A stretch of DNA of 46,267 nucleotides. Source: an uncultured Gemmiger sp. Lineage in GTDB: Bacteria; Bacillota; Clostridia; Oscillospirales; Ruminococcaceae. Position numbers and translations under genes: made by a program. Positions 22,627 to 27,272 of the stretch are shown piece after piece. Location of the stretch: positions 1 to 46,267 of the forward strand of contig CANRLV010000013.1 in the NCBI GenBank assembly GCA_947631565.1. The letters run 5' to 3'. The notes below the pieces were generated by a model, which had not been told where the DNA came from, searched no databases, and saw only the letters and a program-made list of their open reading frames with translations. Every line of letters begins with the position of its first letter. The stretch's first letter is position 1.

Positions 22627-25600
22627 GTGACCGGGGACTATGCCGCTTTTATCAGCTACCGCCACCGCCCGCTGGACACCGCGGTGGCGACCCGCCTGCA
22701 CCGCCTGATCGAGCACTACCGCATACCCAAAGATCTGCGGCAGGACGGACAAAAGCACGTCGGCCGCGTGTTCCGCGACCGGGACGAGCTGCCCTTGAGC
22801 AGCGACCTGACCGCCGAGCTGCGCGCCGCGCTCGACCATTCGAAGTTCCTCATCGTCATCTGCACGCCGGACACGCCGCAGTCCATCTGGGTGGACCGCG
22901 AGATCGAGTATTTTCTGCGCAGCCATGACCGGGACAACGTGCTGGCGGTGCTGGCCGCCGGCACGCAGGACGCCGCTTTCCCCAAGCGGCTGACCGAGGT
23001 CTATGCCGAGGACGGCGTGACGGTGGTCGAGCAGGTCGAGCCGTTGGCCGCCAACATTGCCGACGAGACCAACCCTATCACGCCGGCCAACCGGCTGCTG
23101 CCGCACCGCCTGCGTGTGCTGTGGCGGCTGCGCGGCGAATTTTTGCGCCTGATGGCGGCGCTGCTGCACTGCCCGTACGATACCCTGCGCCAGCGCCGGC
23201 GCCAGTACATCCTGCAGCGGGTGCTGGCTGCCACCCTGGCGGCGGCCGGCGTTGTTGCGGTGTTCGCGGGGATGCTGCTGGACCGCAACCGTGAGATCGC
23301 GCGCCAGATGACCCTGGCGCAGCAGAACGAGCAGCGTGCTCTGGCCAGCGAGGCGCAGGCGCAGGAGAACGAATCCCGCGCGCTGGCCCTGCTCAGTGAG
23401 CAGCAGCTGGCCGGCGGCGACCGCGACGGCGCGCTGCGCAGCGCGCTGGCCGCCCTGCCGGATGCTGCGGCCCCCGACCGCCCTTACCTTACCGAGGCCG
23501 AAAAAGCGTTGGCGGACGCGCTGTACCTCTACCAGCCCCCTGCGCTGCGCCAGGTCCGCACCGTGGAGGAAGACACCGACCTGGTCTGCCTGACCGTGAC
23601 CGCCGACGGCAGCCGCGTCATCTGTGCGGACAGTAACTCGGTCCTGCGGTGTTATGACACGGAGGACGGCGCCCTGCTGTGGACCACCGCCTGCGACATG
23701 TACCCCGAACGCCTGACCGTGGTAGATGAGCATGGCCTTTTGCTGGCCGTCTGCATCAGTGTTCCCTGCGTCGGCGTGTTCGACCTGGTCGACGGGACGC
23801 TCCTGGCCGACGGAACGTTCTTGGTCCTGGCCGACGGAACGTTCTTGGGCGGCAAACTTAGCGGCGCCGACGCCGCCGTCACCGTTGCCCCCGACGGGCA
23901 GACGCTGGCCTTTGCCCGCAGCACCTTTGATGAGGCTGCCGGCCGTGGCGCCGAGTTTGTTTTTCAAGACCTGTACGGCGGCGGGGATCGGACCGTACCG
24001 CTGACGCTGGCCTGCGCCGGCGACGTCGGCGGGAGCGCCAACCCCGAGGGGGTCGTGTTTTCGCCGGACGGCAAGCTCTGGGCCGTGATGATGGTCCAAG
24101 GCGATGACGAGGCGCCGCAGACGCTTTTTGTCGGTGACAGTGCCAGCGGGCAGATCCTGGGCCGCTGGGAGCTTGCGACCCAAAGCTTTTACGCCATCCG
24201 CTACGCCTTTACCGCGGCGGGGGACCTGCTGGTCGCGGACGCCGGCGGCGCGGAGCAATGGGTCAGCGCCTACCGCCCCGGCCGGCAGGAGCCACTCTAC
24301 CGCCGCGTGTATGCGCTGGCGCCGGAAACGGTTTTTGAGCGCACGTTCTGTACCCTGTACATGGACGGCGATACCGCCCTGTGGGTACACGGCGCGAACC
24401 TGGTCCGCCTGCAGGCGGACAGCGGCGAGGTCCTTTCCTACACCGCCCTTACGGATACGGCGGTGGCCTTCTTCCCCGCCGACGGCGATACGCCCGCGCG
24501 GTTGGCGTTGGCGGATGGCAGCCTGCTGGCGCTGGAGGCGGATGGGCCGGTCCTTTGCGCGCAGACCGGCTCACCCGTTCTCTCGATGGCTGCCGCCGGC
24601 GGCGGCGCGGTCCCGGAACGTCTCTGCGCCATACCCGCCGATGCGCCGGCGCAATTCGACCTGTATGCCCTTTTGGGCGACGACCGCGCCGCCCCCATGC
24701 CGGAGGATGGGCCGCTTGCCGGGCAGACCTACCTGAGCCTGTACCCGGTGCCGGATGGCCGCAGCCTGCTGGCGACAGGGCTCTTTGATTGGGACCACGA
24801 CAGACTGACCCTGCTGGACGCACAGACCCTGACCATGCGCGAGCAGTGGGCGTATACAGGCGCCGACCTTGCCCTGAAGGGCCTCTCGGCGGACGGAACG
24901 CGGGCTTTGCTTGTCCAACAGACCGTGCTGGATACCTCGACCGGCGCCGTGCAGGACCTGACGGAGGACCTGCCGCTTGCCTGGCAGGACGAGTTTCTTT
25001 ATTACAGCCACAGCGCTGCCTCGCCCTTTTTGCCGGGCGTGCCCGGTCTGACCGTGCTGATGAATATCAACAGTGATGAAATGGCCTGGTCGCGCGATGC
25101 CGGCCCGCTGCAGCTGTTCTCGTATGCCGGGCAGGGGGTCTGGTCCTGGTACCTGAGTGGCCAGCACCCCGCCGTTTCCGGCAGCAGCGATTATCTGGCC
25201 GCCGGCAACAACGGATATCTGGCACTGGCCCTGTGCGATGAAAACAACGGCCCCATGACCCATTACGCTTTGTATGACACCGCCGGCGACGCCTGGTATA
25301 CCATCGCCGTGCCGCCCTCGACGGACTGCGGCGGCCCGATGGCCCTGGGCGACGTGCAGCCGTGGTTCGCCGTTGTCGGCACAGACGGCACGGTGTGCCT
25401 GTACGACATCGCCGGCGGCCGTGCCCTGCAGACCTATGACCTAGCGCTTTTGCCGGAATACGCCGCGCAGCTGCGTTTTTTGGATGAAGACCGGCTGCTG
25501 CTGGCGCGCGCCACCAACGGCACGATGTGGCTGCTGGACACCGCCGCCGGCACGGTGCTGTGTACCTGCCGGTTCGCCGATATCGTGGCCGCCTACCCGC

Positions 25601-25872
25601 GGGAGCCGGACCGGGGCGCCATGCAGATGTATGCGCAGGTGGATGCCGAGACCCGCACGCTGTACTTGGGCGACCGTGCCGGTCTGCTGACCGGCCTGTG
25701 CCTGGACATGGACAGCTGGCAGACCAGGGCCGATATCCCCGGCCTGATGTGTTACCTGCCCGCCACGCGGCAGGTGTTCTGCCGGGATGCCGACAGCGGC
25801 CTGCCGGTGGCCTACCCAGTCTGCACGCCGGAGGAACTGGCCGCCCGCGCCCGCGCGCTGCTGGCGCCCTGA
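22627..25872 (+). CDS. Membrane TIR-domain protein with C-terminal WD40-like propeller
   Basis: 1081 residues. Residues 5-130 form a TIR domain: YAAFISYRHRPLDTAVATRL, then VFRDRDELPLSSDL, SKFLIVICTPDTPQS and IWVDREIEYFL. The W-x3-E arrangement (Trp88, Glu92) corresponds to the region carrying the catalytic Glu of NAD-cleaving TIR proteins, so enzymatic activity is possible. A charged linker is followed by one membrane segment (about 198-217). Next comes a coiled, Gln/Ala-rich helix (NREIARQMTLAQQNEQRAL) like those before propellers in STAND ATPases. From about 310 on there are repeated beta-blades (VTADGSRVICAD, DTEDGALLW). The start is GTG 22627 after AAAGGGGG. It heads a tight four-gene set with DUF4231 and RyR genes. 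Defence or signalling role is inferred. Confidence 0.85.
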   Translation: MTGDYAAFISYRHRPLDTAVATRLHRLIEHYRIPKDLRQDGQKHVGRVFRDRDELPLSSDLTAELRAALDHSKFLIVICTPDTPQSIWVDREIEYFLRSHDRDNVLAVLAAGTQDAAFPKRLTEVYAEDGVTVVEQVEPLAANIADETNPITPANRLLPHRLRVLWRLRGEFLRLMAALLHCPYDTLRQRRRQYILQRVLAATLAAAGVVAVFAGMLLDRNREIARQMTLAQQNEQRALASEAQAQENESRALALLSEQQLAGGDRDGALRSALAALPDAAAPDRPYLTEAEKALADALYLYQPPALRQVRTVEEDTDLVCLTVTADGSRVICADSNSVLRCYDTEDGALLWTTACDMYPERLTVVDEHGLLLAVCISVPCVGVFDLVDGTLLADGTFLVLADGTFLGGKLSGADAAVTVAPDGQTLAFARSTFDEAAGRGAEFVFQDLYGGGDRTVPLTLACAGDVGGSANPEGVVFSPDGKLWAVMMVQGDDEAPQTLFVGDSASGQILGRWELATQSFYAIRYAFTAAGDLLVADAGGAEQWVSAYRPGRQEPLYRRVYALAPETVFERTFCTLYMDGDTALWVHGANLVRLQADSGEVLSYTALTDTAVAFFPADGDTPARLALADGSLLALEADGPVLCAQTGSPVLSMAAAGGGAVPERLCAIPADAPAQFDLYALLGDDRAAPMPEDGPLAGQTYLSLYPVPDGRSLLATGLFDWDHDRLTLLDAQTLTMREQWAYTGADLALKGLSADGTRALLVQQTVLDTSTGAVQDLTEDLPLAWQDEFLYYSHSAASPFLPGVPGLTVLMNINSDEMAWSRDAGPLQLFSYAGQGVWSWYLSGQHPAVSGSSDYLAAGNNGYLALALCDENNGPMTHYALYDTAGDAWYTIAVPPSTDCGGPMALGDVQPWFAVVGTDGTVCLYDIAGGRALQTYDLALLPEYAAQLRFLDEDRLLLARATNGTMWLLDTAAGTVLCTCRFADIVAAYPREPDRGAMQMYAQVDAETRTLYLGDRAGLLTGLCLDMDSWQTRADIPGLMCYLPATRQVFCRDADSGLPVAYPVCTPEELAARARALLAP

Positions 25873-25944
25873 CCCGGCCTTGACAGCGCCGCGCCGGTGT
25901 GCTATAAACAAAACAACGATACCATGCAGAGGGGGTGTGCCGCG

Positions 25945-26439
25945 ATGTCCTTTTGGGAATGGCTGCGCCGCCCGGCGCCCGGCAAAGCGCCGGAGGCGCC
26001 GGACGAGGAGACCGGTCCGCACCTGAGCGAGTATGTCAGCTTTGGCCCCGGGCATGCGGAATGCAAGGTCGTGTTCCTGGACCCCGGGCGCGGCATCCGC
26101 CGCACCGTTGTGGATGGGGACGGCATCATCCGTCACTTCCCCGGCTTTGACAAGAGCGACCCCCACCTCAAGGCGCTGGGGGAGCTGCCCCCGCCCCGCG
26201 TGCGCTACCGCACCGATTTTGAGCGCCTGCCGGACGCGCGCCATCGTATGCTGTGGCAGGTCCAGCCGGACGGCCGCTACTGGGCGGATGAGGACGGCTT
26301 CGGCATGACCAACGACGAGGAGATCACGCTGTACAGTTTTTTGGACGGGGACGGCCGCTTCACCGCGCCGTTCCGCGTGTACCGCGTGGGGCTGAAAACC
26401 TATTATGACCCGGACAAGGAGGGAGAGCAAAATGGCTGA
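25945..26439 (+). CDS. Hypothetical protein of the TIR/DUF4231/RyR cluster
   Basis: 164 residues, family not recognised. It begins MSFWEWLRRPAP, a short amphipathic or membrane-touching helix, then a Pro/Glu linker. A strand-rich body follows with many Gly and Asp turns (KVVFLDPGRGIRR, VVDGDGIIRHFPGFD, LWQVQPDGRYWADEDGF, ITLYSFLDGDGRFTAPFRVY). There is no Cys pair or signal peptide. AGGGGG precedes ATG 25945. Its last 8 bases overlap the next start codon, so it is translationally coupled to the DUF4231 gene and belongs to that system. It could be an adaptor or ligand-binding subunit; this is speculation. Confidence 0.8.
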   Translation: MSFWEWLRRPAPGKAPEAPDEETGPHLSEYVSFGPGHAECKVVFLDPGRGIRRTVVDGDGIIRHFPGFDKSDPHLKALGELPPPRVRYRTDFERLPDARHRMLWQVQPDGRYWADEDGFGMTNDEEITLYSFLDGDGRFTAPFRVYRVGLKTYYDPDKEGEQNG

Positions 26440-26923
26440 GACCTTTTCCATCGGCGCGGCCTACCAAAGCGGCGCCGATGCGCGGGAAAGCTACATCCGC
26501 AGCCGCATCGAGGACCAGATCGCCTACTACGAGAGCAAGAGCCAGTACAATAAAAAAATCTACTACGCCACCTCCATCCTGGCCGTCGTGACGAGCGCGC
26601 TGGTACCGGTGGTGTCGGTGTTCATGCCGTCGGACATCGTGCCCAAGCTCATCATCACGCTGCTCTCGGCCACCACCACCATCCTGACCAGCCTGCAGGT
26701 GCTGTTCAACGCCAAGGACCTGTGGACCAAATACCGCTTCAACGCCAGCCGGCTGACCGCCTGCCTGCACCAGTATTACTCGCACAGCGGGCCCTTTGCC
26801 GGCCACAGCGAGGAGGAGGCCTTCCAGCTGCTGGTCCAGATGAGCGAGGCCCAGATGGAGGACGAAAACAAGGGCTGGGGCACGATGTTCAAGCACGACG
26901 CGCCCCCCGCCCAGAAACCGTGA
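26432..26923 (+). CDS. DUF4231 two-TM protein (SLATT-like)
   Basis: 163 residues. YIRSRIEDQIAYYESKSQYN just before the first membrane helix is the signature of DUF4231. Membrane helices lie at about 43-64 and 71-92, with a short PSDIVPK turn between. A cytoplasmic helical tail follows (NAKDLWTKYRFNASRLTACL, then EEEAFQLLVQMSEAQMEDE). DUF4231 belongs with the SLATT-type two-TM proteins, predicted membrane effectors (pores) in nucleotide-signalled bacterial conflict systems. AAGGAGGGA precedes ATG 26432 inside the preceding gene. Pairing with a TIR protein and an RyR protein supports such a role. Confidence 0.85.
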   Translation: MAETFSIGAAYQSGADARESYIRSRIEDQIAYYESKSQYNKKIYYATSILAVVTSALVPVVSVFMPSDIVPKLIITLLSATTTILTSLQVLFNAKDLWTKYRFNASRLTACLHQYYSHSGPFAGHSEEEAFQLLVQMSEAQMEDENKGWGTMFKHDAPPAQKP

Positions 26924-26933
26924 GGTGAGACCG

Positions 26934-27215
26934 ATGTATGACCCGCATCCCCACACCGCAGAGCCCGAGGACCTGCCCGCCGCGCTGCGCCCGGCGCTGG
27001 AACACATCGCCGAGACCGTGCACGATACCTGGGCCGCCGGCCGCCTGGCCGAGGGCTGGCGGTACGGCCCCCAGCGTGACGATGCCGCCCGCACCCACCC
27101 CTGCCTTGTGCCCTATGCGGAGCTGCCGGAGAGCGAAAAGCTCTACGACCGCCGCACCGCCGCGCAGACCATCCAGTGCCTGCTGGACCTCGGCTACCGG
27201 CTGGAAAAGCCGTGA
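26934..27215 (+). CDS. Stand-alone RyR-domain protein
   Basis: 93 residues, made of a single RyR domain as repeated in ryanodine receptors. Hallmarks in order: MYDPHPHTAEPEDLP, IAETVHDTWAAGRLAEGWRY, GPQRDDAARTHPCLVPY, and LPESEKLYDRRTAAQTIQ, then LLDLGYRLEKP. Bacterial RyR domains occur in conflict and signalling operons and are thought to bind a ligand, possibly a nucleotide. ATG 26934 lies 5 bases after GAGGTGAG and 10 bases after the DUF4231 stop. A GTG at 26925 is an alternative start. Last gene of the cluster, closed by a large hairpin. Confidence 0.88.
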   Translation: MYDPHPHTAEPEDLPAALRPALEHIAETVHDTWAAGRLAEGWRYGPQRDDAARTHPCLVPYAELPESEKLYDRRTAAQTIQCLLDLGYRLEKP

Positions 27216-27229
27216 ACATTGGCATTAAA

Positions 27230-27272
27230 CTGCAGCGAGCCCCGGCGCCTTTGGCGCCGGGGCTCGCTGCAG
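27230..27272 (+). terminator. Very long perfect hairpin after the RyR gene
   Basis: 20-bp perfect GC-rich stem (27230-27249 with 27253-27272) with TTT loop. There is no T-run, so it may also protect the mRNA end. It separates the TIR cluster from the convergent iron locus. Confidence 0.7.

Follow-up and report, generated by a model that had tools for sequence, protein, structure and literature searches.

The described effectors of Thoeris systems include the ThsA SLOG-NADase, transmembrane (TM)-macro, and caspase-like types, and in 2025 Yirmiya et al., who surveyed TIR systems systematically, reportedly named newer types. TIR genes that adjoin the gene of a two-TM SLATT protein are known pairs (PMC9503650). 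In phages, the RyR protein RyDEP (DyoEdafos gp78) binds and cleaves 2'/3' cyclic ADP-ribose (2'/3'cADPR) via residues H75, W78, H100, and D117, according to a preprint, in which six of eight tested homologues gave a stable complex with 2'/3'cADPR-type signals and two gave none, cleavage was seen with DyoEdafos RyDEP alone and not with the other tested homologues, and sequestration of cADPR signals was found for two of the homologues tested (PMC13232231). Here, we describe a run of four genes at positions 22627-27215 of a 46,267-nucleotide stretch from an uncultured Gemmiger sp. (contig CANRLV010000013.1; the whole stretch is called the window below), in which a TIR protein, a SLATT protein, and a stand-alone RyR protein are encoded in one cluster. 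Most likely, the RyR protein is the reader, or the off-switch, of an ADP-ribose (ADPR) signal made by the TIR protein, and the SLATT protein is the membrane effector. We favor this reading because the linkage of RyR to TIR genes recurs in other genomes, the four ligand residues of RyDEP are kept in the RyR protein, and channel-like partners in relatives carry an RyR segment of their own.

The four genes lie on the + strand in the order TIR-propeller, 164-aa protein, SLATT, RyR, with intergenic gaps of 72, -8, and 10 bp. These open reading frame (ORF) coordinates agree with an earlier note made from the sequence alone, and its domain assignments were borne out by the library scans, with the propeller scoring weakly in this protein. 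The first gene (P0001, 22627..25872; 1081 aa, GTG start) encodes a TIR domain, a single TM segment, and a predicted beta-propeller, and the same domain order is found in homologues. The second (P0002, 25945..26439) encodes a 164-aa protein with the motif WQVQPDGRYWADEDGFG, and its last 8 bp are shared with the start of the SLATT gene; the earlier note called it unrecognized, in keeping with the lack of a match in Pfam, PADLOC, and NCBIfam, and the structure prediction that it proposed gave an all-beta model. The third product (P0003, 26432..26923; 163 aa) has two TM segments by hydropathy and matches DUF4231 (1.7e-15) and SLATT_1 (2.6e-9) in Pfam and SLATT_1 NF033634 in NCBIfam (95.4 bits; cut-off, 41). 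The fourth (P0004, 26934..27215; 93 aa) is a single RyR domain (PF02026; 1.6e-27, 96 bits against a gathering cut-off of 27.4).

The recurrence of RyR beside TIR was seen in two sets of genomes; the scripted marking of TIR, RyR, channel, SLATT, and 164-aa genes relied on profiles built in this analysis rather than on Pfam. RyR was found in 27 of 391 genomes of the class and as a stand-alone gene in 11; eight of these 11, the genome of the window included, have a TIR gene beside it (G334, G448, and G322 do not). A scan of a genome collection confirmed 385 loci, of which the 80 best were analyzed, a choice that biases the sample toward close relatives of the RyR protein; in these 80, TIR lay within 5 kb of RyR in 27 and within two ORFs in 21. 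The count expected in the flanks covered was 0.96, estimated from the genome-wide TIR_2 density of 50 of these genomes with a detector that differs from that of the observed count, and the clustering of genes in defense islands remains in this comparison. When 84 stand-alone RyR genes were considered (fusions longer than 180 aa and L093, which is on the same contig as L036, were excluded), 41 had a channel-like gene within three ORFs, as marked by a profile that includes the RyR segment, 30 had TIR within four ORFs, and 17 had both. The exact quartet of the window was not found elsewhere; what recurs is a modular version made of TIR, RyR, and a membrane gene.

Alignment of P0004 with gp78 placed H30, W33, H55, and D72 (+ strand codons 27021-27023, 27030-27032, 27096-27098, and 27147-27149) at the positions of RyDEP H75, W78, H100, and D117, with identical spacing. 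H30, W33, and D72 are invariant across the 84 stand-alone RyR genes, whereas at position 55, 41 genes have H, 40 have T, two have S, and one has N. The same four residues occur in the C-terminal RyR segment of 38 of 44 channel-like proteins. These 44 were hand-picked, with 40 taken from a 58-protein cluster that also contained kinase-like proteins and fragments, plus L041, L042, and the RyR-fused L069 and L099; the model alignment used 24 of them. They combine an RCK-type middle with the C-terminal RyR segment and stand beside a stand-alone RyR gene (L062:3829-5592, L042, L041, L037, L058, and 39 others), and some have Pfam RCK/TrkA_N matches. The one protein modeled, from L062, has an RCK gating-ring fold resembling CASTOR and GsuK, with E values down to 1.6e-6 in Foldseek, low TM-scores of 0.31-0.37 by query, and the TM part barely covered. 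Some of the 44 loci also have TIR, and this family is larger than the four-gene cluster itself. Proteins of 415-430 aa with an ...EFFD/EFYD... start adjoin the channel-like genes at L057, L063, L072, L074, L089, and L108 and by eye resemble CARF/Card1-type proteins.

Several loci can be set against the window, which reads TIR-propeller, 164-aa protein, SLATT, RyR. L062 has the TIR-propeller, a channel-like protein with an RyR segment, and RyR; L067 has a divergent TIR-propeller followed by channel and RyR; and L088 has a channel-like gene and two TIR-WD40 proteins without a clear TM segment, the nearer of which is two ORFs from RyR. At L040, a divergent TIR-propeller and RyR are accompanied by a protein of 556 aa in which the scan finds two TM segments (more are seen by eye) and which matches no Pfam family at 0.01. 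The Bacteroidales locus L096 has TIR-propeller, RyR, and a 164-aa homologue, separated by 60 and 54 bp. The membrane slot thus appears to be exchangeable.

The TIR assignment of P0001 rests on Pfam matches to ThsB_TIR (7.4e-8; 33.2 bits, cut-off 21.2) and TIR_2 (1.7e-7), which place the domain approximately at 22642..22977. Within it, Glu92 (codon 22900-22902, in W88-V-D-R-E92) is the putative catalytic residue, by analogy with the TIR family. The TM segment spans residues 199-217 (23221..23277), with five K/R on the TIR side and three on the other, and the predicted propeller follows at approximately 23554..25869, supported by weak PQQ_2/WD40-type matches (PQQ_2 at 7.2e-5, under the cut-off) that are clearer in the homologues L040, L067, L096, and L088. 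Among 34 P0001-like proteins, which include a few TIR-TPR proteins or fragments, a TM segment clearly follows the TIR domain in 31 and is not clear in three; K/R are richer on the TIR side in all 31. By the positive-inside rule, the TIR domain is thus predicted to be cytoplasmic and the propeller to lie outside the cell, a Toll-like plan in reversed order.

We propose that the cluster could encode a Thoeris-like, membrane-associated module of nicotinamide adenine dinucleotide (NAD) signaling. The propeller would sense a trigger, upon which the TIR domain would make, from NAD+, a signal of the ADP-ribose type, namely 2'-cADPR, 3'-cADPR, or a related molecule. The small RyR protein would bind this signal, as the residue identity with RyDEP and the recurrent TIR-RyR linkage suggest, and signal-bound RyR would switch the SLATT protein, so that the membrane is opened or damaged and growth stops or the infected cell dies. 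The 164-aa protein may be an accessory component, perhaps a partner of the SLATT protein, whose gene its own overlaps. In relatives, an RCK-type channel-like protein with its own RyR segment would take the SLATT slot. We give the reading of RyR as reader of a TIR-made ADPR signal, with SLATT as effector, a probability of about 0.5; the activity, binding, gating, and role against phage that it entails are what we infer from domains and neighborhoods. The earlier note had sketched a similar chain, in which TIR makes a nucleotide signal from NAD, RyR or the 164-aa protein binds it, and DUF4231 opens the membrane. As a model, the part in which RyR reads the TIR signal and a membrane protein acts on it is supported by the recurrent RyR-TIR linkage, the channel-like gene beside 41 of 84 RyR genes, and the reported binding of 2'/3'cADPR by phage RyR proteins (PMC13232231), but conservation of the four genes as a quartet is not supported.

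Several observations weigh against this reading. Neither TIR nor a channel gene lies near 30 of the 84 stand-alone RyR genes, and the ligand residues are no proof of binding or catalysis, with two of eight phage homologues giving no stable complex. P0001 has 19 Cys after its TM segment, which speaks against an exported propeller; many Cys are unusual in exported Gram-positive domains. SLATT_1-like genes stood beside RyR in the window and in none of 100 other loci (one a repeat, L093 being L036), as judged with a profile from four SLATT_1 proteins that could miss other SLATT families. SLATT_1 was present in five of the 27 RyR-bearing genomes of the class and adjacent to RyR only in the genome of the window. 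The 164-aa family stood beside TIR and RyR in one of five relatives (L096), and the four others fetched had neither. Finally, no RyR, SLATT, channel, or 164-aa gene lay within four ORFs in any of 26 fetched TIR-propeller regions, six of which are on contigs shorter than 8 kb. The genome of the window is one of 26, out of 291 in the class, that carry a P0001-like TIR-propeller; 36 places were found, of which 28 were examined (the 26 fetched, the window, and L040) and eight left out, and only the window and L040 have such neighbors. As a rule, then, the TIR-propeller stands alone, and only a minority of cases show the tie to RyR. The earlier note had taken the quartet as a unit and had named a TIR protein found alone in most relatives as evidence to the contrary; for the TIR-propeller, this is largely what we saw (26/26 fetched). 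The co-occurrence of a DUF4231-RyR-164-aa trio beside TIR-propeller genes, which it had suggested searching for, was not seen, SLATT_1 standing beside RyR in the window only and the 164-aa family mostly elsewhere. The profiles used marked no constant neighbor of the TIR-TM-propeller genes at L234-L259.

These counts bear directly on the view that the TIR-propeller is self-contained and that the SLATT, RyR, and 164-aa genes are unrelated neighbors or a separate small system. The solitary TIR-propellers fit it, as do the nine fetched SLATT_1 loci, none of which has RyR nearby, and the 72-bp gap, the widest of the three. However, a TIR-propeller adjoins RyR or lies within three ORFs of it in L040, L062, L067, L088, and L096, and TIR_2, DUF4231/SLATT_1, and RyR have one match each in the assembled genome (2.47 Mb in 140 contigs, 89.2% complete, 5.05% contaminated), all adjacent within 4.6 kb, which makes unrelated neighbors rather improbable in our view. 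Alternatively, RyR could hydrolyze or soak up the TIR product, so that the system stays silent or the response is shut down, and SLATT itself would be the sensor of the signal. The catalytic pair of RyDEP, H75/D117, is kept as H30/D72, TIR-SLATT pairs without RyR occur (L166-L168), and cADPR signals are cut by RyDEP and sequestered by two of its tested homologues (PMC13232231). We nevertheless consider this less likely than a reader role, given that RyR segments are also part of the channel-like proteins (38/44 with the four residues), of two PrsW proteases, and of a TPR-S/cyclase protein, where a sensor fits better. In favor of a chance capture of a phage-derived anti-Thoeris gene are the RyR relatives in 13 IMG/VR loci (best segments 44-56% identical), 12 of which lack TIR within four ORFs, and the 268 phage records that match RyR at E values up to 0.01. 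This seems very improbable to us, since the three scanned flanking genes (YchF, a PNP_UDP_1 nucleosidase, and FeoB) are housekeeping genes, which as far as these three show is not a phage context, and the bacterial RyR-TIR linkage is far above the genome-wide TIR density.

The upstream flank consists of YchF and an MTA/SAH-nucleosidase-like (MTAN) PNP_UDP_1 protein and the downstream flank of a convergent FeoB, as identified with Pfam. Third-position GC content (GC3) is 0.84-0.91 in the four genes, slightly lower than the 0.90-0.93 of YchF, MTAN, and FeoB, and a purine-rich stretch precedes each of the four starts. The FeoB neighborhoods of 10 relatives, eight of which extend 9 kb or more beyond FeoB on its downstream side, contained none of the four genes; because YchF and the nucleosidase are likewise missing there, these are not clean empty sites. 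The absence of the set at FeoB in relatives and the presence of the 164-aa protein in one of 197 genomes of the family, its own, fit an accessory cluster. Between RyR and FeoB lies a perfect hairpin (27230..27272, unstranded) with a 20-bp stem, a 3-nt loop, and a fold z of -8.7. The perfect hairpin with which the earlier note had closed the cluster is thus there, but it lacks the T-run of a canonical terminator on the + strand and was not among the results of the terminator scan, so that a terminator function is only presumed.

Homologues of the 164-aa protein were found in four of 291 genomes of the class (that of the window included) and, among 247 genomes from the class to which L096 belongs, in three, one of which gave a weak match. 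Those at L139:9600-10082, L140:9493-9951, L141:9259-9684, and L142:9417-9944 share a W-PDG-Y---DGFG motif and lie away from TIR and RyR. In three of the nine SLATT_1 loci, all from one genus, a small TIR gene directly precedes SLATT. RyR was also seen in other contexts. At five loci (L033:5118-10143, L036, L055, L121, and L126), RyR comes after a PP2C-like gene and a kinase-like protein of 1359-1507 aa; the kinase and PP2C labels, like others not taken from a library scan, are by eye. RyR is fused to a PrsW-family intramembrane metalloprotease at L064:138-1196 and L131:1308-2498, to a TPR-S sensor plus the catalytic domain of a guanylate/adenylate cyclase at L129:2587-4872, and elsewhere to a STAND-like protein. 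On the viral contigs L261:6768-9766, L264, and L270, RyR is followed by a vWA-like and by an adenylosuccinate-synthetase-like protein, as read from the sequence, and on L272 of the viral collection a TIR protein of 698 aa comes immediately after RyR, maybe on a mislabeled bacterial contig or as phage-borne defense.

It has long been debated in animal calcium signaling whether ryanodine receptors are a direct target of cADPR. If RyR reads TIR-made cADPR and gates a channel-like or SLATT effector, this question would become testable in a 93-aa protein, a new sensor type would be added to the known effector domains of TIR immunity, and phage RyR proteins would be explained as copying or blunting the host's own reader domain. 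A wider proposal, which we put forward tentatively and hold to be doubtful, is that bacterial RyR domains are receptors for TIR-made cADPR that gate membrane pores, of RCK-type channel-like proteins in many of the relatives and of SLATT here, and represent a prokaryotic form, possibly the source, of the disputed axis between cADPR and the ryanodine receptor.

The literature searched, which did not extend to the survey of Yirmiya et al. 2025, contained no paper joining the RyR domain, TIR, and SLATT, and none of the whole-word matches listed from it combines SLATT and RyR; for Thoeris, RyR, and an effector, the only defense paper on an RyR protein was the phage RyDEP preprint (PMC13232231). We found no match to models of described Thoeris effectors in P0002-P0004 in Pfam, PADLOC 2023, and NCBIfam, the types in question having been defined before those libraries, and PADLOC gave P0003 weak "2TM effector" matches only (1e-4 and 0.02). 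We therefore file the cluster as a variant of TIR/Thoeris-like signaling and not as a described Thoeris type, in a comparison that covers types older than those of Yirmiya et al. 2025. Like Thoeris, it places a TIR protein with a putative catalytic Glu beside candidate sensor and effector genes; unlike Thoeris, it has RyR and SLATT instead of a ThsA-type effector match, and its TIR domain is fused to a TM segment and a propeller. The TIR-SLATT pairs at L166-L168 share a TIR gene beside a two-TM SLATT gene with the window, whereas their TIR proteins are small (144-165 aa), have no TM segment by scan, and have no RyR nearby. CASTOR/DMI1, GsuK, and Slo1 RCK channels resemble the gating-ring fold of the L062 partner, not the window proteins; L062-type proteins add a C-terminal RyR segment and a linkage to TIR, and the window has SLATT instead. 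P0004 is of the same domain family as the Repeat12 domain of the animal ryanodine receptor, which binds adenine nucleotides (PMC12627627), but it is a single domain of 93 aa and not a giant Ca2+ channel. With RyDEP, P0004 shares the PF02026 domain and all four ligand residues, whereas RyDEP belongs to a phage NARP1 operon and P0004 to a bacterial TIR gene cluster.

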